From a virus, in the IMG/VR virus record IMGVR_UViG_3300017963_007645, positions 1-34,700 of that record: a stretch of DNA of 34,700 nucleotides, one strand, 5' to 3'. The notes under the pieces were generated by a model. That model did no database searches and was not told the DNA's origin. It saw only the letters and a program-made list of their open reading frames with translations. The translations under genes were made by a program, and so were the position numbers. How positions within the stretch are numbered: the stretch's first letter is position 1; each line of letters starts with the position of its first letter. Positions 5,254 to 34,700 of the stretch are shown here, piece after piece.

Positions 5254-6035
5254 CATTGCTTTCGCGCATCGAGCGCGGCCGGACGCCAATGCCGCCTCGA
5301 ATCCTCACCTACGGCGTGGAAGGTATTGGCAAGAGTACGTTCGCATCGGAGTCGCCCCGGCCGATTTTCATTCAGACCGAAGACGGGCTGGGGCAAATCG
5401 AATGCGACAAGTTTCCCCTGGCCAGTTCGTTTGAGGAAGTGCATCAAGCGCTCGGCGAACTGCACACGGAGAATCACGACTTTGAGACGGTCGTGATCGA
5501 TTCGCTGGACTGGCTCGAGCGGCTGATCTGGGACGCCGTCTGCAAGGAATACGGCGTCAAGTCGATCGAGAAGGCCGACGGCGGTTACGCCCGTGGCTAT
5601 AGCCACGCCCTGGTCTACTGGCGGCAGATCGTCGACGGGCTCAATGCCCTGCGGAACAACCGCAACATGGTCGTGCTGCTGATCGCGCACACCAAGGTCG
5701 AACGGTTCGAGGACCCTGAATCTTCGGCCTACGACCGCTATTCGCCGCGATTGCACAAACACGCCGCGGCCCTCATCTCCGAGTGGTGCGATGCGGTGCT
5801 TTTCGCCACCCGCAAAATCCGCACCCAAACCGAGGACGCCGGCTTCAACCGCAAGCGGACCATCGCCAACGCCATCGGCAAGGACGGTGGTGAGCGAATC
5901 CTCCGCTGCATCGGCGGCCCTTCATGCATTGCCAAGAACCGTTTCGGGATCGTCGAGGAGTTGCCGTTGTCATGGGCAGCATTCATGACGGCCCTCACCA
6001 ACAACCAATCGTCTGGAGAAAAGACACATGGCTGA
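5250..6035 (+). CDS. RecA-like/Sak4-type AAA ATPase
   Basis: A 261-aa P-loop ATPase of the phage nucleotide-binding type (AAA_24, Sak4-like), expected to act in single-strand annealing or recombination-dependent replication. The Walker A motif is GVEGIGKST (residues 22-30). The Walker B strand is FETVVIDSLDWLE, and a later strand is MVVLLIAHTKVERFE, which resembles the RecA-core sensor region. It lies directly before a DUF669 protein, a RusA resolvase and a helicase, the classic company of Sak4. ATG 5250 overlaps the upstream stop. There is an 8-base overlap with the gene at 6028. The core family is sure; the exact recombination activity is inferred from relatives. Confidence 0.88.
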   Translation: MTLLSRIERGRTPMPPRILTYGVEGIGKSTFASESPRPIFIQTEDGLGQIECDKFPLASSFEEVHQALGELHTENHDFETVVIDSLDWLERLIWDAVCKEYGVKSIEKADGGYARGYSHALVYWRQIVDGLNALRNNRNMVVLLIAHTKVERFEDPESSAYDRYSPRLHKHAAALISEWCDAVLFATRKIRTQTEDAGFNRKRTIANAIGKDGGERILRCIGGPSCIAKNRFGIVEELPLSWAAFMTALTNNQSSGEKTHG

Positions 6036-6483
6036 TCTACGCGGATTTGACGCGAACCAGGTGGAACCGTCCGCCGATTTCGAGCCCATTCCGGCCGGCA
6101 AGTACGAGGCGGTGATCACCGAATCGGAGATGAAGCCGACCAAGGCCGGCACTGGCCACTATCTGCAACTCACCTTCCAGGTCATCGAAGGCGAATTCAA
6201 GAACCGGTTTCTGTGGGCCCGCCTGAACCTCGACAACCCGAATGCGACGGCCGTTCAGATCGCCCGGGCAGAACTGTCGGCCATCTGCCGCGCGGTAGCC
6301 GTGATGGCGCCTAACGATTCGACCGAGCTGCACAACCTGCCCTTGGTGATTTCCGTCAAGTGCAAGAAGCGTGAAGACACGGGCGAGATCGCCAACGAGA
6401 TCCGGGGCTATTCGCAGAAAAAGGAACCAGAGGTGGCCGCCGCGTCCAACGGGAACAACACGCCGCCCTGGAAACGTTCGTGA
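6028..6483 (+). CDS. DUF669 family protein, probable ssDNA-binding partner
   Basis: A 151-aa protein that matches DUF669 by pattern: FEPIPAGKYEAVITESEMKP near residues 18-37, then TGHYLQLTFQVIEGEFKNR and a conserved NLDNPN turn. The family is an OB-fold-like phage protein usually coded beside Sak/Erf/Sak4 annealing proteins, and it is thought to bind single-stranded DNA. The C-terminus is low in complexity (EVAAASNGNNTPPWKRS), as in many SSB-like tails. The start ATG 6028 has GGAGAA upstream and overlaps the ATPase gene by eight bases. Its stop overlaps the RusA start. Confidence 0.85.
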   Translation: MADLRGFDANQVEPSADFEPIPAGKYEAVITESEMKPTKAGTGHYLQLTFQVIEGEFKNRFLWARLNLDNPNATAVQIARAELSAICRAVAVMAPNDSTELHNLPLVISVKCKKREDTGEIANEIRGYSQKKEPEVAAASNGNNTPPWKRS

Positions 6484-6830
6484 TGCTCAGGTTTGAACTG
6501 CCCTATCCGCCGTCCATCAACCATTACTGGCGCCGGGTCGGGCCGCGAACACTAATCAGCCGCGAGGGTCGCCGTTTCCGCGAGCGTGTGGTGGCGATCC
6601 TCGCGGCCCTCCACATCCGGCCGCTGAAGGGAAAGTTGGCGGTCCACGTCGAGGTCTTTCCGCCCGACCGGCGTCGTCGTGACATCGATAACGTCCAAAA
6701 AGCCTTGCTCGATGCACTCGAACACGGCGGCGCTTACGCCGACGACAGCCAGATCGTCAAGCTCACGATCGAAAAAGGCGAACCGGTCGTCGGCGGCAAA
6801 ACACTGGTTCGCATTCGGAATGCTGAATGA
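6483..6830 (+). CDS. rusA: RusA-family Holliday junction resolvase
   Basis: A 115-aa endonuclease that resolves Holliday junctions. The N-terminal segment ELPYPPSINHYWRR is the RusA signature. The catalytic aspartates are visible as D67 and D69 in RRDIDNVQKALLDAL and D87/D88 in GAYADDSQI, the same layout as in E. coli RusA. The length is typical. The start is taken as ATG 6483 within a TGATG overlap with the upstream gene; GTG 6480 is possible. It is followed with a 4-base overlap by the helicase gene. All key residues are present. Confidence 0.93.
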   Translation: MLRFELPYPPSINHYWRRVGPRTLISREGRRFRERVVAILAALHIRPLKGKLAVHVEVFPPDRRRRDIDNVQKALLDALEHGGAYADDSQIVKLTIEKGEPVVGGKTLVRIRNAE

Positions 6831-8491
6831 TCACGTTGCGACCATACCAGGAGGCCGCGAAAGCGGCCGTCTACGATCACCTGCGTACGCGGGACGACAA
6901 CCCGTGCGTCGTGGTCCCGACCGCCGGCGGCAAGACGCCCGTGATGGCATCGATCTGCAAGGACGCAGTTGGTCTGTGGGATGGCCGTGTGCTGATCCTG
7001 GCCCATGTGAAAGAACTGCTGGAGCAGACGACCGACAAGCTTCGGGATATCTGCCCCGAGGTGAAATTCGGCGTCTACTCGGCCGGGCTGAAACGGCGCG
7101 ACACCGAGCATTCGGTGATCGTCGCCGGCATCCAGAGCGTCTACAAGCGGGCCTGCGAGCTCGATGCGTTCAACTTGATCATGGTCGACGAGGCCCATCT
7201 CATTCCGCCCGAAGGCGAAGGAATGTATCGCACGTTCCTGGTCGCGGCCAAGGTGGTCAATCCGGAGGTACGAGTGATCGGCTTGACGGCCACGCCCTTC
7301 CGTCTCAAGTCGGGAATGATCTGCGGGCCGGAGAATATCCTCAACCACGTCTGCTTCGAAGTCGGCGTGAAGGAGCTGATCCGAGACAACTACCTCTGCC
7401 CCCTGGTGAGCAAGGCGGGCACGCAGAAGGCCGACACGAGTGACCTGCACGTTCGTGGTGGCGAGTTCGTGGCCGGCGAGGTCGAGGACCTGATGGACCA
7501 GGACAGCCTGGTGCAGGCCGCCTGCGCCGAGATCGTGGCCCTGACATTCAATCGACACTCCTGCCTGATCTTCGCCTCAGGGGTCAAGCACGGCCAACAC
7601 GTCGCCAAGGTCCTTGCGGACATGGGCGGCCAGGAGTGTGGTTTCGTCTGCGGAGAGACACCGACAAAAGAACGCGATGAGCTGCTGGACCGCTTCCGCC
7701 AGGGAGAACTGAGGTACCTGGTTAACATCAATGTGCTCACCACCGGCTTCGACGCGCCGAACATCGACTGCGTCTCCATGCTGCGACCGACCCTTTCACC
7801 GGGGCTGTATTACCAGATGGTGGGTCGCGGTTTCCGCCTGCATCCGGGCAAGCGGGATTGCCTCGTGCTCGACTTTGGTGGCAACGTGCTGCGCCACGGG
7901 CCGGTCGATCAGATTCAGGTCCGGGAGCATATCTCGAACGGCAACGGCGAGGCGCCGGCCAAGGAATGTCCCGAGTGCCATTCACTGATCGCCGCCGGCT
8001 ACGCGGCCTGTCCGGACTGCGGATACGAGTTCCCGCCGCCGGAGCGCAGACGGCATGATGCCAAGGCGTCCGACGCCGGTGTACTGTCCGACCAGTTCAC
8101 CGACACCGAGTACGACGTCCGCGACATCACCTACAGCGTCCATACGAAGCGTGACGCGCCGCCCGACGCCCCGAAGACCATGCGGGTCGACTACCGCCTG
8201 GGCCTCGACCACTGGCAATCCGAGTTCATCTGCCTCGAGCACAACGGCTACGCGAGGCAGAAGGCAGTTGCCTGGTGGCACCGGCGATCCCCCGATGCCG
8301 TGCCCGACACGGCGGAGCTCGCTGTGCAGATTGCCGAAGGGGGTGGCGTGGCGCACACCGAGATGATCGTTGTGCGCAGCGTTGCCGGCGAGAAGTACGA
8401 CCGCATCGTGGGCTACAAGCTCGGCCCTGTCCCCGAGCCGCTGCCTGTTTACGACAACCTCGGTTACGACGAGGACGAGATTCCATTTTGA
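6827..8491 (+). CDS. SF2 DEAD/DEAH-box helicase with zinc ribbon
   Basis: A 554-aa superfamily 2 helicase. A Q-tip-like LRPYQEAA starts the protein. Motif I is PTAGGKT (31-37), motif II is VDEAH (120-124) and motif III is LTATPFR. Motifs V/VI are seen in INVLTTGFDAPN and QMVGRGFRLH. A four-cysteine zinc ribbon follows (C381, C384, C395, C398), then a beta-rich C-terminal domain of about 140 residues without clear match. Phage helicases of this type unwind DNA during replication or repair. It overlaps the RusA gene by four bases and ends in TTTTGATAA, where the next gene starts. Confidence 0.92.
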   Translation: MITLRPYQEAAKAAVYDHLRTRDDNPCVVVPTAGGKTPVMASICKDAVGLWDGRVLILAHVKELLEQTTDKLRDICPEVKFGVYSAGLKRRDTEHSVIVAGIQSVYKRACELDAFNLIMVDEAHLIPPEGEGMYRTFLVAAKVVNPEVRVIGLTATPFRLKSGMICGPENILNHVCFEVGVKELIRDNYLCPLVSKAGTQKADTSDLHVRGGEFVAGEVEDLMDQDSLVQAACAEIVALTFNRHSCLIFASGVKHGQHVAKVLADMGGQECGFVCGETPTKERDELLDRFRQGELRYLVNINVLTTGFDAPNIDCVSMLRPTLSPGLYYQMVGRGFRLHPGKRDCLVLDFGGNVLRHGPVDQIQVREHISNGNGEAPAKECPECHSLIAAGYAACPDCGYEFPPPERRRHDAKASDAGVLSDQFTDTEYDVRDITYSVHTKRDAPPDAPKTMRVDYRLGLDHWQSEFICLEHNGYARQKAVAWWHRRSPDAVPDTAELAVQIAEGGGVAHTEMIVVRSVAGEKYDRIVGYKLGPVPEPLPVYDNLGYDEDEIPF

Positions 8492-11051: not shown

Positions 11052-11125
11052 TCAGTCGATGGCCGGCGAATGCTGGTACTGCACTGGGGACAGGGAACCC
11101 TGATCGACGTCCCACGGCCGGATAA
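10748..11125 (+). CDS. doubtful ORF, 125 aa
   Basis: An open frame starts ATG 10748, five bases after the primase stop. Its first 30 codons are charged and plausible, but the middle translates the low-complexity pyrimidine tract into Leu/Ser runs and the end is Arg/Gly/Ser rich. It overlaps the end of the opposite-strand gene by 74 bases. I do not recognise it and think it is more likely an accident of composition than a gene. Confidence 0.2.
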   Translation: MAESERSLENEAGRRVKQGEGRVNEVEHVSPYKTVLSLLLSSLSPVCVRPPARACIPVFACDRGERRRKSLGTSRPLEVGAPRGNSRQGEHSLFSWSEQESLSRWPANAGTALGTGNPDRRPTAG

Positions 11126-12341
11126 CCCGCATGTCTCCCCCAAAGGCAACCGGGGTGGTTTCTCGCGAATCGAGTTCGATGTGATGAACGATTACCAACA
11201 CCATCCGTTCGCGGTTTTGTCGAGCGTGCTCAACCTCATTTCTGGTGAGGAACACCGAGCCTCCTTCGCCGGTCGTGCCCTTGACCTCGACATGCAATTC
11301 TTCCACCGCGTCCGTGCAATGGAGGTCGTAGGGGTGATCCGGCGATACGTCGTCAACTTCGTATCCAAGCCCCAGGAAGTAGTCTTCGGCCATGGCCTGC
11401 GCGTGAAGCTCCACAGCACGACGCGCTGCTGGATTAAGGGAAAAACCTTGACCGCGGGATGGCCGAACTATTTGAGCCAATGTTCCGCGACCCTCGGTGG
11501 CGAGTTCCAGTACCGCGTGCCATTGTTCGGGTTCGACAGTGAAGATATTGCCTCCCCGCGCCCGCGCAACGGCCAGATCGGAAAGCCATGGCGTATTTCC
11601 ATCCTCCCACAGTGGAAGGCCGGGCGACGGGAGAACACGGAAGCGGATACGCTCACTGGGACCGATGATTGGTCCTCGCCAGAAGCGGTTCTCTTCGGGG
11701 GGGCTAGGCAAAACCGCCAGTCCGGCAGTGACTTCGCCAAGCGCGATCACGCCTCGACGATCGCCGCTACCCTTGGCCTGCCAAACGAGAATACGATCAC
11801 CTGGTTGGGGGGCCCCGCGGTCGACTGTCCATACCAGCTCATCGAGAGCGGACACCGCTTCAAGGCCTGCAAACCGATCTGGATTACACAGAAGCGACCA
11901 ATAACGTCGAGCTGGGTTGATTTTGGCAAAACGCCATTTCTCAACATCCGTACCCTCCAGCGATCCCGCGCCGACTGCCCGTTCGCACCAGCGTGTCAAT
12001 CTTTCGGTCAGACGGGAATCGCTCGAATATCCGTCCAATACTGCTTCGATCGCACGATGAGTTACCCCCCCGTCGAACTGGGCACCAGTCGATCGACCAG
12101 CCAGGGCGCTCTCGTACCGATCGAACGTCATGCTTCGGAATCCAACGAACTTCGACGGTCCGAAGGTTTCCTCATCAGTATCGACAACCCAATAAGTTGT
12201 CTGCCGAACCAGTACCTCAACGCGCTCAACGTTGGCGGTAAGCTCGCGATTGAAGCGTCGAATGTTGTCACGAATCTCGCCGGAAGTTCTGACCGTCTCC
12301 AATGTGACGGATTGAGGCGAGCCGGTTGGTCCTGACGCCAT
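11052..12341 (-). CDS. EVE domain-DUF3883 nuclease-like protein
   Basis: A 429-aa protein. The N-terminal part (1-135) has an unassigned module with the phrase FGPSKFVGF. Residues about 147-285 form an EVE (PUA-like, modified-base-reading) domain: RRYWSLLCNPDRF, then ELVWTVDRG, PGDRILVWQA and RRGVIALGEV. Residues about 306-395 are DUF3883 of the PD-(D/E)xK fold, with YDLHC (D339) and HVEVKGT (E352, K354), followed by VFLTRNEVEHA. Such fusions are known or predicted modification-dependent restriction enzymes. I chose the ATG at 12341 (minus) because AGGGAG precedes it; the frame is open to 12431 but would overlap the divergent methyltransferase gene. It is the only leftward gene in this block and looks like inserted cargo. 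Confidence 0.83.
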   Translation of the reverse strand: MASGPTGSPQSVTLETVRTSGEIRDNIRRFNRELTANVERVEVLVRQTTYWVVDTDEETFGPSKFVGFRSMTFDRYESALAGRSTGAQFDGGVTHRAIEAVLDGYSSDSRLTERLTRWCERAVGAGSLEGTDVEKWRFAKINPARRYWSLLCNPDRFAGLEAVSALDELVWTVDRGAPQPGDRILVWQAKGSGDRRGVIALGEVTAGLAVLPSPPEENRFWRGPIIGPSERIRFRVLPSPGLPLWEDGNTPWLSDLAVARARGGNIFTVEPEQWHAVLELATEGRGTLAQIVRPSRGQGFSLNPAARRAVELHAQAMAEDYFLGLGYEVDDVSPDHPYDLHCTDAVEELHVEVKGTTGEGGSVFLTRNEVEHARQNRERMVLVIVHHIELDSRETTPVAFGGDMRVIRPWDVDQGSLSPVQYQHSPAID

Positions 12342-12402
12342 GGTATCTGCTCCCTGTAATCGGGGGGTGGCACAGGCATGCACATCATACGGAGAAGGAT
12401 AA
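12342..12402. promoter_or_regulatory. divergent promoter region
   Basis: These 61 bases separate the leftward nuclease-like gene from the rightward methyltransferase gene and carry both ribosome-binding sites (AGGGAG on the minus strand near 12351-12356, GGAGAAGG at 12391-12398). Any promoters for the two genes would have to sit here or in the opposite gene. No clear consensus boxes are seen. Confidence 0.5.
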
Positions 12403-13722
12403 ATGAAAATCGAGCTTTGGGATATTAGCAAAGTGCGTCCCTACGAGAAAAATCCGCGTGTCAATGACAACGCCGTCGACGCGGTGGCGGAGTCGATTCA
12501 GCAGTTCGGGTTCCGCCAGCCGATCGTGGTGGACACGGAAGGCGTGATCATCTGCGGGCACACTCGCTGGAAGGCCGCACAGAAGCTGGGCCTGGAGAAG
12601 GTGCCGGTCCACGTCGCCAAGGACCTGACGCCCGAGCAGATCAAGGCGTACCGGATCGCCGATAACAAGACGGCCGAACTGGCCGACTGGAACTACGACC
12701 TGCTGCCGATCGAGCTGTCGCAGCTCCAAGGAATGGATTTCGACCTGGGGCTGCTTGGATTCTCGGAAGACGAGCTGGCCAAGCTGCTCGACCCGGGCGT
12801 GACGGACGGTCTGACCGATCCCGACGAGGTGCCGGAGCCGCCGGACGAGGCGGTCACGCAGCCTGGCGACCTGTGGATACTCGGCGATCACCGTTTGCTC
12901 TGCGGCGACAGCGGCAATCCGGAGCACGTCGACCGCCTGCTCGACGGCGCATCGATCCACCTGGTTAACACCGACCCGCCGTACAACGTCCGGGTCGAAC
13001 CGCGGAGCAACAATGCCATCGCTGCCGGCCTGAGTTCGTTCCAGGGAACCAAGCACCACCAGAAGTTTGACGTCGAGCGGCACCCGGAGAAGGCGAAACC
13101 GACGCAGAAGAAGATGCGGGCAAAGGACCGGCCGCTGGAAAACGACTTTGTGTCCGACGAGGCGTTCGACCAGTTGCTTGCCGCTTGGTTCGGCAACATC
13201 GCCCGCGTGCTGGAGCCGGGGCGCGGCTTCTACATCTGGGGCGGGTACGCGAACTGCGGGAACTACCCGCCGGTGCTCAAGGCGACGGGCCTGTACTTTT
13301 CTCAAGCGGTCATCTGGGTGAAGGAACACCCGGTGCTCACCCGCAAGGATTTCATGGGGAACCACGAGTGGTGTTTCTATGGGTGGCGGGAAGGGGCCGC
13401 GCATCATTTTCTCGGCCCGAACAACGCGGTGGATGTCTGGTCAGTGAAGAAGGTGAATCCGCAAAGCATGGTTCACTTGACCGAGAAACCGGTCGAGCTG
13501 GCCGTGCGGGCCATCCAATACTCGTCACGAACGGGCGAGAACGTGCTGGATCTGTTCGGCGGGAGCGGGTCCACGCTCATCGCGTGCGAGCAGACGGGGC
13601 GGAAGGCGTTCTTGATGGAACTCGACGCGCTGTATTGCGATGTGATCGTCCAACGCTGGGAGAACTTCACTGGCAAGAAGGTGCAGCGCGTTGCGGCGGC
13701 GTTGCAGGAGGCCGAGGCGTGA
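12403..13722 (+). CDS. ParB-domain DNA methyltransferase (N4/N6, beta class)
   Basis: A 439-aa fusion. Residues 1-100 are a ParB N-terminal-like domain (VRPYEKNPRVNDNAVDAVAE, and IICGHTRWKAAQKLG at 49-63). Residues about 155-430 are a DNA amino-methyltransferase. The catalytic motif IV is DPPY (191-194), and the S-adenosylmethionine motif I, LDLFGGSGST, lies near the C-terminus. The order IV before I defines the beta class, and the target is adenine N6 or cytosine N4. ParB-methyltransferase fusions are frequent in phages, where they protect phage DNA or mark it for replication or packaging. It is divergent from the EVE-DUF3883 gene, so the two may form a modification/restriction pair. ATG 12403 follows a good GGAGAAGG. 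Confidence 0.92.
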   Translation: MKIELWDISKVRPYEKNPRVNDNAVDAVAESIQQFGFRQPIVVDTEGVIICGHTRWKAAQKLGLEKVPVHVAKDLTPEQIKAYRIADNKTAELADWNYDLLPIELSQLQGMDFDLGLLGFSEDELAKLLDPGVTDGLTDPDEVPEPPDEAVTQPGDLWILGDHRLLCGDSGNPEHVDRLLDGASIHLVNTDPPYNVRVEPRSNNAIAAGLSSFQGTKHHQKFDVERHPEKAKPTQKKMRAKDRPLENDFVSDEAFDQLLAAWFGNIARVLEPGRGFYIWGGYANCGNYPPVLKATGLYFSQAVIWVKEHPVLTRKDFMGNHEWCFYGWREGAAHHFLGPNNAVDVWSVKKVNPQSMVHLTEKPVELAVRAIQYSSRTGENVLDLFGGSGSTLIACEQTGRKAFLMELDALYCDVIVQRWENFTGKKVQRVAAALQEAEA

Positions 13723-15526: not shown

Positions 15527-15874
15527 TCAGCTCTTGGCGGCGAACTTGCCGCGCTCGGTCTTCTTGAACCGGGAGTCTTTCCCCTTGGTCTGAATCTCGC
15601 GGAGAATCGCGCTGTACAGCGTGGCGTGCGGCGTCTTGCCGCCGGGGCTGGTCCAGAGCTTCTTGGCGGCCATCACCTCGACCAGCTCTTTGCAGTTCAT
15701 CGGTTTCTTCGCCGCGGCCAGCACCTTCGCGGCGGCGTCGATGGCGCTGAGCTTCTTGGCCTTTGCCCCGCCCTTGGCGGCGGCCTTGCCGCGGGTCTTC
15801 TTGGCCGGCGTTGCCTTTTTCGTCGTGGCCTTCCGCGCGGCGGTCTTCTTCGTCGTGGTCTTCCTCGTAGCCAT
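15527..15874 (-). CDS. HARE-HTH protein with histone H1-like lysine tail
   Basis: A 115-aa basic protein. Residues 2-42 are almost only Lys, Ala, Thr and Arg with KKTAARKATTKKATPAKK repeats, like bacterial histone H1 homologues. Residues about 43-112 form a HARE-HTH winged helix: LSAIDAAAKVLAAAKKPMNC, then KELVEVMAAKKLW, then GGKTPHATLYSAILREIQTK and a basic wing, SRFKKTERGKF. HARE-HTH domains occur in RNA polymerase delta, chromatin proteins and restriction enzymes and bind DNA. A role in compacting or silencing DNA is inferred. The frame is open to 15958; ATG 15874 is chosen because the domain and tail begin there and AGGAGC precedes it. Confidence 0.85.
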   Translation of the reverse strand: MATRKTTTKKTAARKATTKKATPAKKTRGKAAAKGGAKAKKLSAIDAAAKVLAAAKKPMNCKELVEVMAAKKLWTSPGGKTPHATLYSAILREIQTKGKDSRFKKTERGKFAAKS

Positions 15875-15973
15875 GATTCGGCTCCTCGTGAAAATCGTTC
15901 TCGATGGTTCGGGGGCTGCCATCGTCAGGCGGCGGGAACCACCCGCCGCGACGCCCATGCGGGCGTTTCGGCT

Positions 15974-16771: not shown

Positions 16772-17644
16772 TCAGGCGGCGGCGCGGCCCGCGGCGTCGT
16801 ACTTCCGGGCCATTTCGATCAACTTCGCCTTGATGGCCTTCATGTCGGGGGCGGCGGCCTCGGCGGCGAGCAGCCCGAAGACCCTGTTGCGGAGCGCCCC
16901 CTTGTACCAGCCTTTCGTCCATCCCAGCCGGTAGAACAACCGGTTGAGTTCCGTTTCGCCTTCGCCCGCGCCCGGGCGGTCCCAGCAGCTCCGCGTGCCT
17001 TCCCGCTTCGTGTAGTCCCAATCCGAGCGGCGCGTCGTGTTCAAAGCGAGTTCGACCAATCCGAGGCACATCATCAGGTAGCCGGCCACCTTCGTCTTGT
17101 TGAGAGTGCCTGCGAAAGCCCGGAACTCGATGCGGTTGCGGCCGCGGGCCAGGTGCGTGAGGTTCAGCAGGTGGTAGCGGTCGGCTTCGCACCGCTGCTT
17201 GGCGTCGTCGTGGTTGCCGTATTCTTTGATCTTTTTGCTGTACCGGTTCTGTTCGCGGCGCTTCGTGCCCGTGCTGGCGTAGATGGCCCGCTCGTGGTTG
17301 CCGACCAGGGAAATCAATCGAGCCAAGGCGGCGGCGTCCCCGTTCCATTCGATGGTGATGTGCAGGCCACAGCTTGGGTTGACCCGGCCGTTGCGGGCGT
17401 TGATCGCGTCGATGGCGGCCTCGACCTCTCGAAGCCCCTCGTAGCCGCGAAGCTTGGGGCTGACAAACTCGCACCCGTGTCGTCCGTAGGCCTGCGTCCG
17501 GATGCTGCCATCGCGTTCGGCTTTCCATCCCGCGGGCAGCCAGGCGACCGGCAGGCCCCGGTGGTAGCTACCAATCGGCGTCCTATCCGTGTCGGGCAGG
17601 GTGGTTTCAAGTTCGATTCCCCAGGCAATCTCGGTGGCGTTCAT
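16772..17644 (-). CDS. amidoligase-family enzyme (COOH-NH2 ligase)
   Basis: A 290-aa protein with the conserved blocks of the amidoligase family of the glutamine-synthetase superfamily: GIELETT (9-15), DGSI (45-48), GCEFVSPKLRG (57-67), SCGLHITIEW (91-100), RYHLLNLT (156-163) and IEFRAFAGTLN (172-182). The acidic and basic residues that coordinate metal-ATP in this superfamily (E11, E13, H95, E173, R175) are all present. The enzymes join a carboxyl and an amine, for example to tag a peptide or modify a cell-wall or nucleic-acid component. The substrate is unknown. It is alone in the unit headed by promoter-like copy C. ATG at 17644 with AGGAAC upstream. Confidence 0.85.
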   Translation of the reverse strand: MNATEIAWGIELETTLPDTDRTPIGSYHRGLPVAWLPAGWKAERDGSIRTQAYGRHGCEFVSPKLRGYEGLREVEAAIDAINARNGRVNPSCGLHITIEWNGDAAALARLISLVGNHERAIYASTGTKRREQNRYSKKIKEYGNHDDAKQRCEADRYHLLNLTHLARGRNRIEFRAFAGTLNKTKVAGYLMMCLGLVELALNTTRRSDWDYTKREGTRSCWDRPGAGEGETELNRLFYRLGWTKGWYKGALRNRVFGLLAAEAAAPDMKAIKAKLIEMARKYDAAGRAAA

Positions 17645-27577: not shown

Positions 27578-29929
27578 ATGTCAGTGTCCTCAACCGCAAT
27601 TCGCGCCGGCCGGGCGTTCGTCGAGCTGTTCGCCGACGACACGAAACTTGTGCGCGGATTGCGGCGGGCCGAGGCGAGGATCCGCGCGTTCGGGGACAAG
27701 CTCAAGAATATCGGCCGCCGGATGATGGGGCTGGGCTTGGCCGCTGCCGCTCCGCTGGCGTTGTCCACAAGGATCTTTGCCGGCTTCGACGATCAGATGC
27801 GGGCCGTTCAGGCGGTGATCGGGGCCACCGGCAAAGAGTTTGACATGCTCACCGAGAAGGCCAAGTACCTTGGCCGGACCACGTCGTTCTCGGCGGCTCA
27901 GGTTGCGGCCGGCATGCTCGAACTGGGCCGCGCCGGTTTTTCACCGAAACAGATCGACGCGGCCATCGCCTCGGTACTCAACCTCTCTCGGGCCACCGGA
28001 ACCGAACTGCCTGAGGCGTCGAACATCGCTGCCAATACACTCCGTTCGTTCGGTCTGGAGGCCGACCAGATGGGGCGGGTGGCCGACGTGATGACGGCCA
28101 CGGCCAACAACTCGGCGCAAACGCTGATGGACCTGGGCGAGGCGATGAAATACACGGCGCCGGTCGCGGCCGAGTATGGGCTTACGCTCGAGGAAACCGC
28201 CAAAACGCTCGGCGCCCTGGCCAACTTCGGCATCAAGGGCTCGATGGCCGGCACCACCATGAAAAACATCCTGCTGCGGCTGGCCGACCCGGCGATCCGC
28301 AAGCAGGTCGAAGCGCTTGGCGTCTCGGTCACCGACGCCGGCGGCAATTTGCGCAACGTCTCCGACGTCCTCCGCGATGTGGGCCAGGCCGTCGATGGGA
28401 TGCCTAACGCCAAAAAGCTGGCCATCTTCAACCAGATCTTTGGTATGCGGGCGATTGCCGGCGGGGCCAAACTGACGGTCGCCGAATTCGATCGTCTGAA
28501 CAACGCCATCGACGGCGCCGCGGGGACGGCCGCCAAGACGGCCAAGGTGATGGACAGTGGCATCGGCGGCGCCTTCCGACGCCTGTATTCGGCCGTCGAG
28601 GGAATCGCCATCGCCATTGGCGACGCGCTGGCCAAGCCGCTGTCCGACATGGCCGACTGGCTCGGCAAATGGGCCGGTGCGATTACCCAGTGGGTCCAGG
28701 ACCACCAACAGCTCGTCGTCATGGCGATGAAGGTCATCGTCGTCGTGATGGGTGTCGGGGCCGCGCTGGTGGCCCTAGGGTTTGTGTTCAGCACCCTGGC
28801 GACGGCAATTGGCGGGATCATCACGGTCGTCACGGCCGCAATCGCCGTCTTCAAGGTGATCGCTGCGGTGATTGCCTTCCTCGTTTCGCCGATCGGCCTC
28901 GTAATCGCAGCCATCGCCGCGCTCGGCGGGTACATCCTCTACGCAACCGGCGCCGCTGGCAAAGCGATCGCGTGGCTTGGTGAGAAGTTCGGCGTGCTCA
29001 AAGAAGATGCGCTGAGCGCATATCAGGGCATCGCCGACGCACTTGCGGCCGGTGACATCTCCCTGGCGGTCAAGATCCTCTGGCTGACGATCAAGATGGA
29101 GTGGACCCGGGGGGTGAATGCCTTGGAGAAGGCGTGGCTCAACTTCCGCAATTTCTTCATTCGCATTGGTTACGACGCCTGGCACGGTCTTCTCGGCGTG
29201 GTCGAAACGGTGTGGCACGGACTGGAGGTGGGTTGGATCGAAACAACGGCCTTCTTCTCCAAAGCATGGTCATCCTTTACCGGCTTCTTTGCCAAGACCT
29301 GGGAGCGGATCAAGTCCGGCGCGAAGAAGGCGTGGAACTGGATCAAGAGCCTGTTCGACGACTCGGTCGACCTGGAAGCCGAAAACAAGCTCGTCGAGCA
29401 GGAGAAGCAGGCGGCGATCAGTCGAATCGACGACGAGCAGAAGCGGAAGATTGCGGAGCGCGAGGCGCAGCGGCAGGCCGAACGTCGTCAGTCGGCCGCG
29501 GTGCATGAAGGCACGATGGCTCAAATCGGCCAGGAAAACCTCGACGCACACCAGGCACTCGACGACGAGTATTCGGCCAAGATGGCCGAGAACGAAGCCG
29601 ATCTGGCCACCGCCCGTAAGGAGTGGCAAGACGCTCTCACTAAGGCAAAAGCCAAGCGCAAGGCGGCTGAGGAGGACAAGGGCCCCGACGGTCTTGAAGG
29701 TCCGGATGCGATCATCGCCAAGGCCCAGGAGGCCGTGTCGAGTCTCAGTTCTCTAGGCGGAATCAGCGGCGCCATCGAGGTGCAAAGCACGTTCAACGCC
29801 ATGGCCGCTGCTCGCGGAATGGGCACGGGTGGTCCGGTGGACAAGATCAAGGAACGCGTCGCCGAGATCGACCGCAACATCGGGATTCTTGTTCAGGAAG
29901 CCAAGAAGGGCGGGATTCAGTTCGCATAA
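27578..29929 (+). CDS. phage tail tape measure protein (TP901 type)
   Basis: A 783-aa tape measure. The N-terminal part fits the TP901 family (DDTKLVRGLRRAEARIRAFG, DDQMRAVQAVIGATGKEFDM, LGRTTSFSAAQVAAGMLELG, GTELPEASNIAANTLRSFGL). Hydrophobic helices around residues 385-460 probably insert in the host membrane during DNA injection. A charged coiled coil (QEKQAAISRIDDEQKRKIAE onward) lies at about residues 600-720. At roughly 1.5 angstrom per residue this predicts a tail near 115-120 nm, an estimate from the known rule. ATG 27578 has a weak Shine-Dalgarno. Confidence 0.92.
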   Translation: MSVSSTAIRAGRAFVELFADDTKLVRGLRRAEARIRAFGDKLKNIGRRMMGLGLAAAAPLALSTRIFAGFDDQMRAVQAVIGATGKEFDMLTEKAKYLGRTTSFSAAQVAAGMLELGRAGFSPKQIDAAIASVLNLSRATGTELPEASNIAANTLRSFGLEADQMGRVADVMTATANNSAQTLMDLGEAMKYTAPVAAEYGLTLEETAKTLGALANFGIKGSMAGTTMKNILLRLADPAIRKQVEALGVSVTDAGGNLRNVSDVLRDVGQAVDGMPNAKKLAIFNQIFGMRAIAGGAKLTVAEFDRLNNAIDGAAGTAAKTAKVMDSGIGGAFRRLYSAVEGIAIAIGDALAKPLSDMADWLGKWAGAITQWVQDHQQLVVMAMKVIVVVMGVGAALVALGFVFSTLATAIGGIITVVTAAIAVFKVIAAVIAFLVSPIGLVIAAIAALGGYILYATGAAGKAIAWLGEKFGVLKEDALSAYQGIADALAAGDISLAVKILWLTIKMEWTRGVNALEKAWLNFRNFFIRIGYDAWHGLLGVVETVWHGLEVGWIETTAFFSKAWSSFTGFFAKTWERIKSGAKKAWNWIKSLFDDSVDLEAENKLVEQEKQAAISRIDDEQKRKIAEREAQRQAERRQSAAVHEGTMAQIGQENLDAHQALDDEYSAKMAENEADLATARKEWQDALTKAKAKRKAAEEDKGPDGLEGPDAIIAKAQEAVSSLSSLGGISGAIEVQSTFNAMAAARGMGTGGPVDKIKERVAEIDRNIGILVQEAKKGGIQFA

Positions 29930-29944
29930 GGGGCCGATCACCGT

Positions 29945-30751
29945 ATGGCAACCTCCATCGCCGAAAAACCGAGCAGTCGCAGCGCCACCGAAGGCGTCGA
30001 TAACAGCGCGTCGGCCACGCTCGAATATATCGTGAAGGGCACCGACGACGATTCGGCCGTTCATGCCCTGGTCCAGGCGACCGTCCCGGCGTTCTATCGC
30101 GGCCTCTCCTTCCAGACGTACAGCATCGACCCGGTCCATGTCGACGAGTCCGATGCGATCGGCTATTGGGACGTCTCGGCCCAGTACGGCGTGAAGGACC
30201 CGAAAGAGTCGACCTACACGTTTGACACGGGCGGCGGCAACCAGCACATCACGCAGTCGCTGGTAACCAAGGGCCGTTATCCTGCGCCGGGTTTCGTCGC
30301 GCCCGACTTCGGAGGTGCCATCGGGGTTACGCACGAGGATGTCGAGGGGGTCGACATCACTGTGCCGGTCTACAACTTCAGCGAAACCCATTACATCGAT
30401 GACGCCCTGGTCACCGACGCCTATAAGGGAACGCTCTTCCTGCTGACCGGTAAAACGAATCAAGCGGCGTTCCGCAACTTCGCCCCTGGCGAGGTCCTCT
30501 TCCTGGGCGCCTCGGGCACAAAACGAGGCAAGGACGATTGGGAGATCACTTTCAAGTTTGCGGCGTCACCGAACGTCGTAAACCTGCAAATTGGTCCGAT
30601 CACGGTGGCCTCTAAACGCGGCTGGGAACTTCTGTGGGTCCGCTATACGGACGTCGAGGATTTGGAAGCCAAGATGCTGGTGAAGCAGCCGGTGGCTGCG
30701 TACGTGGAGAAGGTCTATGAGGAAGGCGACTTTTCGGGGTTGGGAATATGA
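29945..30751 (+). CDS. probable tail protein, 268 aa
   Basis: A beta-rich protein placed just after the tape measure, as for distal tail proteins. It has a Ser/Ala-rich start (MATSIAEKPSSRSATEGVDN), an NTF2-like or beta-sandwich stretch (VQATVPAFYRGLSFQTYSID), a Gly-rich turn FDTGGGNQHITQ and a C-terminal hydrophobic part ANGG-free but acidic (YVEKVYEEGDFSGLGI). No family can be named with confidence. ATG 29945 lies 15 bases after the tape measure stop. Its stop overlaps the Ser-rich gene. Confidence 0.75.
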   Translation: MATSIAEKPSSRSATEGVDNSASATLEYIVKGTDDDSAVHALVQATVPAFYRGLSFQTYSIDPVHVDESDAIGYWDVSAQYGVKDPKESTYTFDTGGGNQHITQSLVTKGRYPAPGFVAPDFGGAIGVTHEDVEGVDITVPVYNFSETHYIDDALVTDAYKGTLFLLTGKTNQAAFRNFAPGEVLFLGASGTKRGKDDWEITFKFAASPNVVNLQIGPITVASKRGWELLWVRYTDVEDLEAKMLVKQPVAAYVEKVYEEGDFSGLGI

Positions 30752-31674
30752 GCATGGACCATCTCCGTAAAGTGCAGTCCGGGCAAAAGCTCGAAATCCC
30801 CGCGGAAACGTTCAATTCGTTCGTCGACGCGGCGCGGGATTTCAAGGACCGCCAACGCGACAAGCAATCGAAGCCGGAACCGTACTTCCCCGATTCGGGA
30901 ATCATCCTGGTGGCCAACGAATCGGGCGGTGACCGAAACCGATTCGATGTGCTGGGGGTGACGGAACCAATCATCCGGCCGGATGCCAATCTGATCGAGT
31001 TCAAACGACGGCCCACGTTTCGCGGTGTGACCCCCACCGACGCGCACAAATGCCGGTTCGTCATTCTCTTGGAGCCGGTCAAAGCGAACAAGATTGCCCG
31101 CGCCGTTATCGCGGGCGTGACGGTCGTTCGCCTCCGCATCGATGATCCACTCGACCCGTGCTGCGACGTCGAACCGGAAGTCTGCGACTACCTGCAAACG
31201 TGCATCGACGGCTCGGCCCAGATTCTGTGGAAAGAGAAGAACAGCGGTGTCTGCTGGGCCATTGTTCGACTTGGCAACTGCTGCGAATTGGACGAGTCGA
31301 GTAGCAGTTGGAGCGATTCGTCGAGTTCCTCCGATAGTTCATCAAGCCCGTCCGAAAGCGACGTCTCCGAAAGTGATTCGGAGGAATGCTGCGGTTGCCG
31401 CGGCGTGACGGCCACAGTTCGCGTGCTTATCCCGAAACCATATCGGTCCGGCGACAACCTGTGTTTTCCTCTGGCCGACCTGAAGTTCGTAGACGGCTGC
31501 TTCCAAGGCGTGACCCCGGCCGGCGTATCGTGTCACTACATTTGCTGCGACGAAAGTTCCAGCAGCAGCAGTAGCGACGACGAGATCGGCGTTCTGGACG
31601 ATTCCAGTTCTTCGTCGGACGAGTCGTCCAGCGTCTCGGACAGTTCCTCCTCTTCATCGTGGGGAGGATGGTAA
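30748..31674 (+). CDS. Ser/Asp-rich, Cys-containing virion-region protein
   Basis: A 308-aa protein. The first 150 residues form a globular domain (DHLRKVQSGQKLEIPAETFN, FVDAARDFKDRQ, then NRFDVLGVTEPIIRP). Then come Cys-rich blocks (DPCCDVEPEVCDYLQTCIDG, later CCGCRG and CHYICCDE) interleaved with two Ser/Asp/Glu tracts near residues 187-215 and 269-305, the last ending WGGW. Such Ser/Asp tracts are common in planctomycete phage-like proteins (knowledge, not tested). They could be flexible, metal-binding, or sites for glycosylation or phosphorylation. The protein overlaps the tail gene before and the transferase gene after it by four and one bases. Confidence 0.8.
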   Translation: MSMDHLRKVQSGQKLEIPAETFNSFVDAARDFKDRQRDKQSKPEPYFPDSGIILVANESGGDRNRFDVLGVTEPIIRPDANLIEFKRRPTFRGVTPTDAHKCRFVILLEPVKANKIARAVIAGVTVVRLRIDDPLDPCCDVEPEVCDYLQTCIDGSAQILWKEKNSGVCWAIVRLGNCCELDESSSSWSDSSSSSDSSSSPSESDVSESDSEECCGCRGVTATVRVLIPKPYRSGDNLCFPLADLKFVDGCFQGVTPAGVSCHYICCDESSSSSSSDDEIGVLDDSSSSSDESSSVSDSSSSSSWGGW

Positions 31675-32399
31675 TGAACGTCGACGTGGTCATCCCGCTT
31701 GGCCATGGCAGTCGCTGGGAGGACAACGAGTTGCGTTTCTGCCTTCGAGCCTTGGAGACGAATTTCCTGGACCTGGGCAACGTATGGATTGTTGGCGAGA
31801 AACCGGCCTGGTGCGTCAATGCTCGCTACCTTCGCATGCCCGACTTCTTCGCTTCGAACAAAGACGCCAATCTCATCACGAAAGTGATGACCGCTTGCTA
31901 CCAACGCAGCATGACATCCTTCTTCGTCCGGTCAAGCGACGATGAAATCCTTCTGCGCCCGAAGCGATTCGACGATCTGCGGCCGTACCACCAAGGCGAG
32001 ATCCGCCGTAGTAAGGGCAACCGCTGGCATCGCCGGCTCGATCGGACGGGACGTTGGCTCCGGAGTCGCGGGCTCACCGCTTTCAATTATGACAGTCATC
32101 TTCCCGCCCCCATGCATCGCGACCGGTTTCTGGAGATCTTCGATCGGGCCTCATACAAGAAGCTGCCGGGGCTGACGATCGATTCGACGTACTTCAATTG
32201 CTGTGGGCTCAGTAATCACGTGCGGTTGCCTCGAAGATTTCGCCTTCGCTTGGATCGTCAGATCGAGGACGTGACTCGGCTGCAGCGAGTCTTGCGCCGC
32301 GCTCACTACGTGAACATTACCGATCGTGCCATCGGCGAGACCCTCGAACGGGTCCTCAAGGAGATATTCCCGAAGCCATCGCGGTTCGAGAAAGGATGA
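31674..32399 (+). CDS. Stealth-like glycosyl/phosphotransferase
   Basis: A 241-aa protein. NVDVVIPLGHGSRWEDNELR near the start, CLRALETNFLDLGNVWIVGE, then the FVRSSDDEILLRP motif with acidic D89, D90 and E91 (88-92 region) and FNYDSHLPAPMHRDRFLEIF near 140-160 match the CR1/CR2 layout of Stealth family transferases, which add sugar-phosphate units to polysaccharides or proteins. The two other Stealth regions (CR3, CR4) are not visible, so it may be a short variant. ATG 31674 overlaps the stop of the Ser-rich gene (TAATG) and has GGGGAGG upstream. It is the first gene of the glycan cassette. Confidence 0.75.
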   Translation: MNVDVVIPLGHGSRWEDNELRFCLRALETNFLDLGNVWIVGEKPAWCVNARYLRMPDFFASNKDANLITKVMTACYQRSMTSFFVRSSDDEILLRPKRFDDLRPYHQGEIRRSKGNRWHRRLDRTGRWLRSRGLTAFNYDSHLPAPMHRDRFLEIFDRASYKKLPGLTIDSTYFNCCGLSNHVRLPRRFRLRLDRQIEDVTRLQRVLRRAHYVNITDRAIGETLERVLKEIFPKPSRFEKG

Positions 32400-32403
32400 T
32401 GGT

Positions 32404-33126
32404 ATGCGAACCCTTTGGATAATTGCCGGCATGCGTCGTAGCGGTATCCACGCCGTGGTCAACTGGATCAAGGCCGCGATCGACACGACGGGTGAACCCC
32501 ATGTTCTGCTGAATAACGTTCGCCTTTCGGTACTCAATAGCAGAAACTCGAACGCGATATTCTCGAAGAACTTCGTGTCGTCGAATTCTCGGAACGAGCA
32601 TATCTTGATTGTGTTCGAGGACAAACACCTTCAGCGCGTTTCGGCATCGCCACTACTCCGTCGCATCGGCGCAGATGAAAGCAAGCGGCTCATCGTGCTC
32701 CGAGATCCTTACAACCTCGTGGCCAGCCGCCTGCAACGAACGCGTCGCCGACGCAATCGTGACACGCATCCACGTCGCGTGGCCGGGCTGTGGCCTGACC
32801 ACGCCAAGCACGACGATACGTGGACCCGATGCGTCTACAACCAGTGGTTTCTCGATGAATCGTACCGCCGGCAGGTGGCCACCGCCCTCGGCCTCCCGAT
32901 ATGCCCGCTGTTCCCGAACCGCATTGCACGCGCGGGCAGCGGCAGTTCGTTCGACGGTGTGCGCTACGACGGGCGCGCCGGTGAGATGCCTGTCCTCGAA
33001 CGCTGGCGCCAGTTTGCCGACGACTCGGAATTTCGGCAGCACGTCAACCATCCGCTGTTGGCCACGCTGAGCGAGGAGTTGTGTGGTTTTCCCAATCCGC
33101 TGAAGGAGGTGGCCATTGATTCCTAA
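32404..33126 (+). CDS. sulfotransferase-like protein
   Basis: A 240-aa protein. The N-terminal IIAGMRRSGIHAVVNWI (6-22) is a P-loop-like motif of the kind that binds the 5'-phosphosulfate end of PAPS. RLIVLRDPYNLVASRL (95-110) matches the second PAPS-binding motif, with the typical RDPxxxxxSR arrangement. Later, YNQWFLDESYRRQ and FNR-like turns match the rest of a sulfotransferase fold. Enzymes of this type add sulfate to sugars or tyrosines. It could also act as a nucleotide-dependent kinase-like relative. ATG 32404 with AAAGGATG upstream; the frame is open to 32326. It overlaps the next gene by 11 bases. Confidence 0.68.
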   Translation: MRTLWIIAGMRRSGIHAVVNWIKAAIDTTGEPHVLLNNVRLSVLNSRNSNAIFSKNFVSSNSRNEHILIVFEDKHLQRVSASPLLRRIGADESKRLIVLRDPYNLVASRLQRTRRRRNRDTHPRRVAGLWPDHAKHDDTWTRCVYNQWFLDESYRRQVATALGLPICPLFPNRIARAGSGSSFDGVRYDGRAGEMPVLERWRQFADDSEFRQHVNHPLLATLSEELCGFPNPLKEVAIDS

Positions 33127-33724
33127 GACGATCCACCAGATCTGGCTCGGCGGCCTCGACTCACGACCCGACCGCATCGCAGCGGCGATGGCTCGTATCG
33201 AGGAAGTCTTCAACGACTACGCCTATCGCCTGTGGACGGAGGCGGATTTCGCTTCGCTCGACATTCAGCGGTATGCCCGCGTCCGGCCCTACGCCGCGCT
33301 GAGCGATCTAATGCGGTATCGCATCCTCTTACTGCACGGCGGGTGGTACGTTGACGCCGATTGTGAGCCGATCGGTCAATCGCCGCGCATGCCGATCGGG
33401 GGCCGTGTGTTTGTCGTTAACGAGGCGCATCCCAGACGCTACTGGAATGGTCTGATTGGCTGCGAACCAGGTCACATCCTTGTGGGCGACGCGTATCGGC
33501 GATCCGCAGCTGTGTTCGACACTGTTCTCAGCGGTGGACAAGTCAACAAAGGTATCGTCGATCTCACCGGGCCGAACCTGCTGTTCCGTCTGTGCCGCAA
33601 ACACAACATCTCGCCCCGCCGTGCGAATCGCTGGATGGCACACATCCATCCCGATGCGCCTCTGATTCATCGCAACCTGCACTCGTGGAAGGGGAAGAGA
33701 ATTCACGTGGAGGCTGACGCATGA
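33116..33724 (+). CDS. glycosyltransferase with DxD motif (Gly_transf_sug type)
   Basis: A 202-aa protein with the signature of the sugar-binding DxD family that includes OCH1 and capsular transferases: MIPKTIHQIWLGG at the start, ALSDLMRYRILLLHGGWYVD (61-80) and the metal-binding D80 and D82 of YVDADCEPI. Such enzymes transfer a sugar from a nucleotide sugar. TTG 33116 is the start, since AAGGAGG lies six bases upstream and MIPKTIHQIW begins the family domain. It overlaps the sulfotransferase-like gene. Substrate unknown. Confidence 0.85.
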   Translation: MIPKTIHQIWLGGLDSRPDRIAAAMARIEEVFNDYAYRLWTEADFASLDIQRYARVRPYAALSDLMRYRILLLHGGWYVDADCEPIGQSPRMPIGGRVFVVNEAHPRRYWNGLIGCEPGHILVGDAYRRSAAVFDTVLSGGQVNKGIVDLTGPNLLFRLCRKHNISPRRANRWMAHIHPDAPLIHRNLHSWKGKRIHVEADA

Positions 33725-34410
33725 ACCTCTCTGTTTGTATCGGCTACACCAACCGTTCTTACGAGAACATGGCCCGCGTCGCGGCACGGACGATCGTACG
33801 GCACACGCCGGGTGCGAAGGTCCGCCTGGTTCGGTGCCAGGACAAGGGCTACCGCAAGAACATGGGCACACGGTTCGACGCGTACATTGACGAGTCGGCC
33901 GATTGGGTGTTGGGGCTGGACGCGGACTCGCTATGCTTTGGCGACCTCCGGCCCATTGTCCGGCGGGCCGAAAGCGGTGGGTTTGAGTTTCTCGGTCGCC
34001 TTTCCGGCCGGCCGCGCCGTGCGCCGCGATCCTTCGACCGGCAACGTTACTGCCAGCTTTTCCGTGGGGCCGGCGTGACGGAACTTAGTCTCCACGTCCC
34101 GAACGTTTTTCTCATCCGCGGCCGCCACTCGGCCAAGCTAGCTGAACTCGCCACGCGGTGGACCGAGAAACTCTACGAAACCGAAAACCATGTGCTTGGC
34201 CGCTCACTCTGGTCGGACCAGGTCGGTTTCACGTTGGGCCTCGCCGAATTGCGGCTGGCGCCGGGCCAATTCGGTTTCTTCAAGGGCAACGAAGTCTCTG
34301 ATTGGACCCGAGCCCGTCGGATGTCGTCTCGTCCGGCTATCGTTCATTTCGGCGGCCGCCGCTGGCGTCGCCTCTGGGGCCAGGGCCGCATCCTGGGGTT
34401 GATCCGATGA
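33721..34410 (+). CDS. glycosyltransferase, GT8-like with DxD
   Basis: A 229-aa protein. It starts MNLSVCIGYTNRSYENMARV and contains WVLGLDADSLCFGDLRPI (62-79), where D67 and D69 form the DxD motif that holds the metal and nucleotide sugar. A later SDQVGFTLGLAEL and AIVHFGGRRWRR with a conserved His fit GT8-type and related transferases. ATG 33721 overlaps the stop of the previous gene (ATGA). It is the fourth enzyme-like gene in a run of overlapping genes, all apparently acting on sugars. Confidence 0.78.
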   Translation: MNLSVCIGYTNRSYENMARVAARTIVRHTPGAKVRLVRCQDKGYRKNMGTRFDAYIDESADWVLGLDADSLCFGDLRPIVRRAESGGFEFLGRLSGRPRRAPRSFDRQRYCQLFRGAGVTELSLHVPNVFLIRGRHSAKLAELATRWTEKLYETENHVLGRSLWSDQVGFTLGLAELRLAPGQFGFFKGNEVSDWTRARRMSSRPAIVHFGGRRWRRLWGQGRILGLIR

Positions 34411-34700
34411 GTCGACGCCCCGGCAACAACCTCATTCAGAAAACCATCTCTCTGGCCATCGCGCTTACGACCGGCCGCCGCGTGAGCGACGAGCGCATCC
34501 GACGCCGTGTCGAGATATGCTCGCGCTGTCGTTACGTCCGCATCCGCAAGACGCAGCGTGGCCGGAAGCTCAACTGCGGTCTTTGCGGTTGCCGCGTCCG
34601 CGGTCGTCGCGCCCTGGTCAATCTTGCCCGCTACGAAGAAACCCGTCGCTGGGGCTGCAAACACCCTAAGGGTTCACGATGGAAGGCCGAAGGCCAGTGA
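34407..34700 (+). CDS. zinc-ribbon protein at cassette end
   Basis: A 97-aa basic protein with cysteines C38 and C41 (EICSRCRYVRIRK) and C57, C60 and C62 (LNCGLCGCRVRGR), followed by C84 (WGCKHPKG). A zinc-ribbon or treble-clef-like fold is likely. It resembles the small Cys-rich proteins that follow tail genes in some phages. The start ATG 34407 overlaps the stop of the glycosyltransferase (ATGA). Its stop codon ends exactly at the last base of the window. Confidence 0.75.
   Translation: MSRRPGNNLIQKTISLAIALTTGRRVSDERIRRRVEICSRCRYVRIRKTQRGRKLNCGLCGCRVRGRRALVNLARYEETRRWGCKHPKGSRWKAEGQ

Follow-up and report, generated by a model that had tools for sequence, protein, structure and literature searches.

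A Planctomycetota prophage family encodes a serine-rich, probable surface protein beside predicted sugar enzymes that may decorate it

SdgA and SdgB are usually encoded beside the staphylococcal Ser-Asp repeat proteins, where the sugar guards against proteolysis (PMC3794999). Among phages, the mycobacteriophage Che8 and its relatives are described, in the accounts that cite Freeman et al. 2023 (PMC12619734, PMC11256854), as carrying glycans at the C-termini of capsid and tail-tube proteins, with a shield role. Here we analysed a viral DNA of 34,700 bases (the window), which is the entire IMG/VR record IMGVR_UViG_3300017963_007645, and describe in it a run of genes, gp3 to gp8, in which a Ser/Asp-rich protein is followed by candidate sugar enzymes. 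We consider it likely that the phage puts sugars, and perhaps also phosphate or sulfate, on its own surface fibre, so that a self-decorated virion fibre would be made by this cassette.

The SdgA/SdgB system is the closest working parallel, as both systems have a Ser/Asp-rich region and adjacent glycosyltransferase (GT) genes. However, the staphylococcal proteins are Gram-positive cell-wall adhesins with N-acetylglucosamine (GlcNAc), whereas here the protein is from a phage and the enzymes belong to other families (PMC3794999). With the mycobacteriophages, as these are presented in the two citing papers, the window shares phage-encoded GTs, which here are predicted. The proposed acceptor in the window is, unlike theirs, a separate Ser-rich fibre-like protein encoded beside the enzymes, and the set adds Stealth-type phosphotransferase and sulfotransferase-like genes (PMC12619734, PMC11256854). 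The genes are laid out as follows.

27578..29929, + strand: tape measure protein, which precedes the run (Pfam PhageMin_Tail 1.8e-52, PHROGs tape measure 1e-94).
29945..30751, + strand: gp2, conserved structural-module protein before gp3 (homologues in 35 of 36 planctomycete genomes with a related portal gene).
30748..31674, + strand: gp3, proposed glycan acceptor of 308 residues (predicted model, fold matches, codon analysis), with a beta-tulip-like base at about residues 49-178, disordered Ser/Asp-rich tracts at about 182-215 and 268-308, and a small Cys-rich domain between the tracts.
31674..32399, + strand: gp4, probable divergent Stealth-type sugar-1-phosphate transferase (family profile against GNPTAB and CpsY).
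32404..33126, + strand: gp5, putative sulfotransferase-like P-loop protein (conserved motifs).
33116..33724, + strand: gp6, predicted DXD glycosyltransferase of the Gly_transf_sug type (Pfam).
33721..34410, + strand: gp7, putative glycosyltransferase with a DxD-like motif (motif).
34407..34700, + strand: gp8, zinc ribbon (CxxC...CxxCGC...C), probable transferase partner (relatives, fusions).

The overlap between gp2 and gp3 is 4 nt. The ATG of gp4 (31674) and the stop codon TAA of gp3 (31672-31674) have one base in common, and a ribosome-binding-like motif, GGGGAGG, lies ahead of gp4 at 31661-31667. A gap of 4 bases separates gp4 from gp5, which starts with ATG; gp5 overlaps gp6 (start TTG) by 11 nt, and 4-nt overlaps are present at both gp6/gp7 and gp7/gp8. 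The initial annotation had described six overlapping or closely spaced genes from 30748 to 34700, and we found the genes and their overlaps as they had been given. The order gp3-gp4-gp5-gp6-gp7-gp8 is retained in a related locus, L003, with protein identities from 48% (gp3) to 71% (gp8), while loci L002 and L011 retain gp3-gp4 and the beginning of gp5. The unit is therefore real and conserved. For gp2 there was no family or PDB match.

The DNA downstream of gp2 and gp3 homologues was collected from 60 loci and later from 38 more, the genes were called with a simple script, and their products were scanned against Pfam. We assigned locus labels from the Pfam results and sequence-cluster membership, and those of L011, L144 and L174 from cluster membership or gene order alone. 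We found that GT or sulfotransferase genes follow 33 of 34 Ser/Thr-rich gp3 homologues but 7 of 57 Ser-poor ones (91 in total; Fisher p 8e-17). When the MptE-like family of one Phycisphaerales-type lineage was counted among the sugar enzymes, the Ser-poor figure became 23 of 57 (p 2e-8). In the first set, the 87 proteins from 23 Ser-rich loci included 22 GT2, 14 GT25, 15 Sulfotransfer_1, 9 radical SAM, 5 GT1 and 3 Gly_transf_sug. The 88 proteins from 28 Ser-poor loci included 3 Gly_transf_sug, 1 GT1, 4 MptE-like and 5 methyltransferases, the rest being mostly host-type, and neither GT2, GT25 nor sulfotransferase was among the families listed for these 88 proteins. In the second sample a glycosyltransferase was present in 5 of 5 Ser-rich loci scanned and the Thr/Ser-rich L186 had a GT2; among the other Ser-poor loci there were three matches to GT9. 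The initial annotation would have been refuted if the enzymes did not accompany the Ser-rich protein elsewhere, and these counts show that they do co-occur. A linkage between candidate acceptor and enzymes beyond chance appears well supported, with a caveat on ancestry that is taken up below.

The enzyme sets differ by lineage. In the window and L003 they are Stealth plus Gly_transf_sug, and in Pirellulaceae-type loci a GT25-sulfotransferase fusion plus GT2; other lineages have GT1 plus GT2 (L099, L124, L125, L167), radical SAM plus GT2, a GT2-methyltransferase (L127) or a Stealth fusion (L098). That the enzymes are non-homologous between Ser-rich lineages is a stronger argument than the pooled counts. 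Together with those counts it gives good comparative backing to the earlier suggestion that the phage decorates its own Ser-rich protein.

Two other patterns were seen in these loci. Within the glycosyltransferase cassettes of L118, L136 and other Pirellulaceae-type loci, genes for radical SAM proteins with an iron-sulfur motif are found repeatedly. In one Ser-poor lineage (L101-L123 and relatives) gp3 is followed by an MptE-like or sialyltransferase-like gene, often with a methyltransferase.

Among the cassette proteins of Ser-rich loci, five match the Pfam TET-associated glycosyltransferase family (TAGT), and radical SAM proteins occur in several cassettes, as would fit transferases that glycosylate modified bases of the phage DNA. 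However, no TET/JBP or hydroxymethyl-pyrimidine enzyme was found among the window open reading frames (ORFs) scanned or read, the cassette is located in the structural module, and such a role would leave both the link to Ser-rich gp3 and the sulfotransferase fusions unexplained. Because no base-oxidising or hydroxymethylating enzyme was seen, we regard DNA hypermodification as very improbable.

The first 180 residues of gp3 belong to a widespread family, of which we found members in 36 of 392 sampled planctomycete genomes and aligned 18 diverse ones. An AlphaFold model of gp3 had a predicted local distance difference test score (pLDDT) of about 90 across most of residues 51-180 and below 50 in the Ser/Asp tracts. 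When the base was searched with Foldseek, the nine best PDB rows were all phage capsid or head-fibre proteins (probability 0.98-1.00, with E only 0.0018-0.041). With VIA-align the base model reached Z scores up to 8.9 over 106 residues, and rows 1-18 were all phage proteins, while MoeA-type rows scored about 4.3. The top fold matches were HFTV1 (Z 8.9), FCWL1 (Z 8.0) and T1 (Z 7.6), and further capsid decoration matches were Sf11, E217, Pam3, TW1, XM1, phiCD508, lambda gpD and SHP. The base of the phi29 head-fibre protein gp8.5 also matched, as did, lower down, MoeA/gephyrin and herpesvirus triplex-type proteins.

A beta-tulip fold is common to lambda gpD, TW1 gp56, phi29 gp8.5, herpesvirus triplex proteins and MoeA, and phi29 gp8.5 consists of a beta-tulip base and a projecting spike (PMC7602432). 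The matches to the gp3 model fit this list, and the gp3 base is predicted to have the beta-tulip fold of phage decoration and head-fibre proteins. Like phi29 gp8.5 and the beta-tulip decoration proteins (PMC7602432), gp3 would have an N-terminal beta-tulip base and then a projecting C-terminal part. However, gp8.5 projects a helical coil, whereas gp3 has Ser-rich tracts together with a small Cys-rich domain. From the model we take gp3 to be a probable virion surface protein whose Ser-rich arm projects, at a position that could be head, neck or tail. The phi29 gp12 preneck appendage also matches the base (Z 6.7), and a tail or neck appendage role is therefore possible. Of the earlier description of gp3 as a virion protein after the tail genes, the placement stands, as the tape measure gene precedes it, but the predicted fold is of the capsid-decoration/head-fibre kind and not plainly that of a tail protein.

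The gp3 protein was also described as Ser-rich and Cys-containing, and we count 51 Ser and 16 Cys. In a close relative, L011, gp3 has 486 residues compared with 308 in the window, with about 90% identity outside the tracts, and the length of the Ser/Asp tracts changes fast between gp3 relatives. In Pirellulaceae-type prophages gp3 has 700-970 residues, 27-42% of them serine, and often a conserved Cys/Trp cap at its end. Replication slippage would yield runs of a single codon. We found that the two codon blocks, TCN and AGY, are interspersed among adjacent gp3 serines (29-63% block switches) and that identical codons are not clearly over-represented side by side, and on this mixing we rejected the view that the Ser runs arose as a microsatellite or by slippage. 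Since neighbouring codons come from both blocks, serine itself appears to be under selection in the gp3 arm.

Stealth proteins are defined by conserved-region (CR) motifs, including a CR1 start like IDVVYTF (PMC10668966). A family profile of gp4 with its L098 homologue and two mycobacteriophage homologues matched Stealth-type enzymes only, namely GNPTAB (3.7e-14), a fly homologue and CpsY (4.3e-4). With gp4 alone, 3 of 5 weak PDB matches were GlcNAc-1-phosphotransferase-type chains, with E for the gp4 group alone of just 0.24-0.27. The match of gp4 to phrog_7999 was 1e-20. The L098 homologue, related to gp4 at 3e-28, matches Pfam Stealth_CR2 at 1.5e-5, which is under Pfam's own cut-off. At the CR1 position gp4 has VDVVIPLGHGS and the homologue from phage Boilgate has MDVIYPVRPGD, both similar to IDVVYTF but not identical. 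The ELR..LR.L and DD core of CR2, the best conserved part of the family, is present, and the GNPTAB/CpsY profile matches cover CR2. CR3 holds H.P and a catalytic Arg, and gp4 has a CR3-like H.P...R pattern, as HLPAPMHR aligns with HMPHMIDR of GNPTAB in the sequence alignment; its Arg is a candidate counterpart of CpsY R419. In place of the CR4 tetrapeptide CLND/CIND, gp4 has NITD near the aligned position, while the final FP.PS.FE motif does match.

Because the CR4 tetrapeptide is absent, gp4 would be a divergent relative and not a standard Stealth member. It shares with the family and with GlcNAc-1-phosphotransferase (GNPTAB, CpsY; PMC10668966) the CR1-like start, the CR2 core and, less surely, the CR3-like pattern, and differs in its short length (241 residues) and in CR4. 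Taken together, the motifs and profiles suggest that gp4 is probably a divergent Stealth/GlcNAc-1-phosphotransferase relative that works like the family. A model of gp4 from 3 sequences had a pLDDT of 38.6, too poor for use. The first genome scan with gp4 gave no match, and among 50,697 phage records weak matches were found in mycobacteriophages Gaia, Nebkiss and Boilgate. In L098 a single frame (5636-7528, - strand) holds a Stealth-type and a phosphoribosyltransferase-like domain (NCBIfam 0.011), and it adjoins a Ser/Glu-rich gp3 and a sulfotransferase-like gene.

A PAPS-dependent sulfotransferase is recognised by a 5'-phosphosulfate-binding loop and a 3'-phosphate-binding motif, along with a family profile match. 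The motifs RSGxHA and RDxYNLxASR of gp5 are kept in four relatives, and two chromosomal relatives of gp5 adjoin glycosyltransferase-like genes. No match was found by hhalign between gp5 and the GT25-fused sulfotransferase domain, the profiles being shallow. From its motifs gp5 is plausibly, and putatively, sulfotransferase-like. Because GT25-sulfotransferase fusions are present in 14 sister loci and L165, sulfation by the cassette is also plausible. For gp6, the Pfam family Gly_transf_sug matched at 1.1e-6 (29.7 bits against a cut-off of 23), with the DXD motif in YVDADCEP, and this predicts that gp6 is a DXD glycosyltransferase. A TcdA_TcdB match on gp6 (0.0017, under the Pfam cut-off) was put down to the shared DXD sugar-binding region. 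The motif WVLxxDxDxLCFGD of gp7 is kept in the window and L003 and suggests a putative glycosyltransferase; hhalign of gp7 against two GT-like families gave no match, again with shallow profiles. In the 50,697 phage records gp6 had weak matches in Microbacterium phages, and there was no match for gp5, gp7 or gp8. The enzyme labels first given to these genes are thus borne out by profile for the Stealth-like gp4 and the first DxD glycosyltransferase, gp6, and by motif only for the sulfotransferase gp5 and the second DxD glycosyltransferase, gp7.

Ribbons similar to gp8 occur at the C-terminus of the GT2-methyltransferase in L127 and at the C-termini of 370-382-residue proteins in L166, L169 and L176, which are Ser-poor loci whose set also gave the three GT9 matches. 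A free-standing ribbon follows Ser-rich gp3 in L096/L097. The fusions to the GT2-methyltransferase and to the 370-382-residue proteins suggest that the gp8 zinc ribbon serves transferases.

The window holds a siphophage-type set of genes: gpA-like terminase, portal, fused head protease/major head protein, decoration protein, neck, major tail protein and tape measure. Its portal-profile relatives are almost exclusively in Planctomycetota assemblies, often several per genome, and prophages of the window type have a place in the genomes of cultured strains, among them Rhodopirellula, Rubripirellula, Stieleria and related ones. The relatives of the window are Planctomycetota prophages, and these viruses are temperate. 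The record ends with the final base of the gp8 stop codon. Behind this cassette, L003 has a gene for a small helix-turn-helix-like protein and one of the tyrosine-integrase type (a Pfam integrase domain was found in this set of loci), which places the cassette at the integrase end of the prophage.

This is a usual site of lysogenic conversion genes, and the enzymes might instead act on a glycan of the host surface (capsule, O-chain or other) and so prevent superinfection, with the Ser-rich protein an unrelated neighbour. Polysaccharide loci commonly contain the GT25, GT2, Stealth and sulfotransferase families, and the chromosomal neighbourhoods of the gp5 relatives would also fit. However, we found no membrane helix in gp2-gp8 and saw no flippase or lipid-linked transferase there, and among the 88 proteins encoded downstream in Ser-rich loci only 4 have a hydropathy at or above the threshold. 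In addition, the enzymes track Ser-rich gp3 and mostly not the Ser-poor form, and in the window gp3 and gp4 overlap by one base. The absence of a membrane component and the tracking of Ser-rich gp3 make host-glycan modification the less likely explanation; this alternative, which the initial annotation had also offered, is weakened, and we now consider it unlikely.

Several observations weigh against decoration of gp3. The gp3 tree needs just 3-5 changes of the Ser/Thr-rich label and yields no more than 3 independent pairs with good support. These point almost always in the expected direction but are too few for significance (sign test p 0.25), and shared ancestry therefore explains part of the link between enzymes and gp3. 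Most of one Ser-poor lineage has the MptE-like gene, which possibly acts on sugars. Of the genes read next to the gp4 homologues of Gaia and Boilgate, none encodes a Ser-rich protein, and a Stealth gene alone therefore does not imply a Ser-rich acceptor. Neither gp5 nor gp7 had a profile match (Pfam, NCBIfam or PDB for gp5). Lastly, seven Ser-poor loci carry GTs too, and the glycosyltransferases might act on other targets.

Those seven loci would also fit a reading in which the Ser/Asp tracts form a flexible, acidic but unmodified spacer and the enzymes serve some other virion or host target; many proteins have Ser-rich linkers without glycosylation. The strong co-occurrence with Ser/Thr-rich gp3, non-homologous enzymes included, and the selection of serine through both codon blocks argue against a plain spacer, and we hold it to be improbable.

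Decoration of the fibre by the phage itself would proceed as follows. In the surface protein gp3, a beta-tulip base like those of capsid-decoration and head-fibre proteins would carry a flexible arm rich in Ser and Asp. Soluble gp4-gp7, from the same tight gene run as the acceptor, would act on this arm in the host cytoplasm, either ahead of assembly or while it is under way. In such a scheme gp6 and gp7 would attach and extend sugars on gp3 serines, gp4 would place a sugar-1-phosphate either on serine or on a sugar already attached, and gp5 might contribute sulfate, while the gp8 zinc ribbon would probably help to bring the enzymes to their target. The result would be a mucin-like coat of acidic character, most likely serving as a particle shield (for example against proteases or clumping) or in the tuning of adhesion.

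More tentatively, the coat could be a viral mucin, in which fibre serines carry phosphate-linked and sulfated sugars through a Stealth-type protein phosphoglycosyltransferase and a sulfotransferase, and in which enzyme sets are interchangeable between Planctomycetota phages to give a fast-evolving coat; we regard this extended form as possible but doubtful. Phosphate-linked or sulfated sugar chemistry was not found for tailed-phage virions in the literature searched, nor did we find, in the open-licence literature, a prior report of planctomycete phages with Ser-rich proteins or of phage sulfotransferases.

Other features of the window and its relatives were also seen. A 459-residue ORF at 11052-12431 (- strand) resembles, by eye, an EVE-type reader domain with a DUF3883-like nuclease after it and is a possible phage-borne defence gene, and 12403-13722 (+ strand) encodes an N6/N4 DNA methylase fused to a ParB N-terminal domain (Pfam). 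At 15527-15958 (- strand) a Lys/Ala-rich stretch of histone-like composition precedes an apparent HARE-HTH-type winged helix. A 290-residue ORF at 16772-17644 (- strand; NATEIAWGIELE...) has a by-eye likeness to amidoligases and sits among opposite-strand genes at about 14-17.7 kb, where the AT skew is strongly negative. The degraded relative L005 (9905-18308) has a deletion that joins the tape measure to gp7-gp8, with BREX-like components downstream, as judged by eye. Genomes G005, G019, G023 and G384 each hold several related prophages or remnants, with up to 9 gp2 and 8 gp3 matches, which is an unusually high copy number for a single phage family.

Few tailed phages are known to have glycosylated virions, and the acceptor has usually been a chance find. 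In the prophages described here the acceptor and its enzymes are apparently encoded side by side, so that the pairing is recognisable from sequence alone, and in a phylum, Planctomycetota, whose phages are almost unstudied. The new part is this apparent pairing of Ser-rich gp3 with sugar enzymes, a variant of the known phage virion glycosylation. If sulfate or phosphate is confirmed, a polyanionic mucin-like coat would join the known ways of dressing phage particles, and these cassettes would be a source of soluble enzymes that work on Ser-rich peptides.

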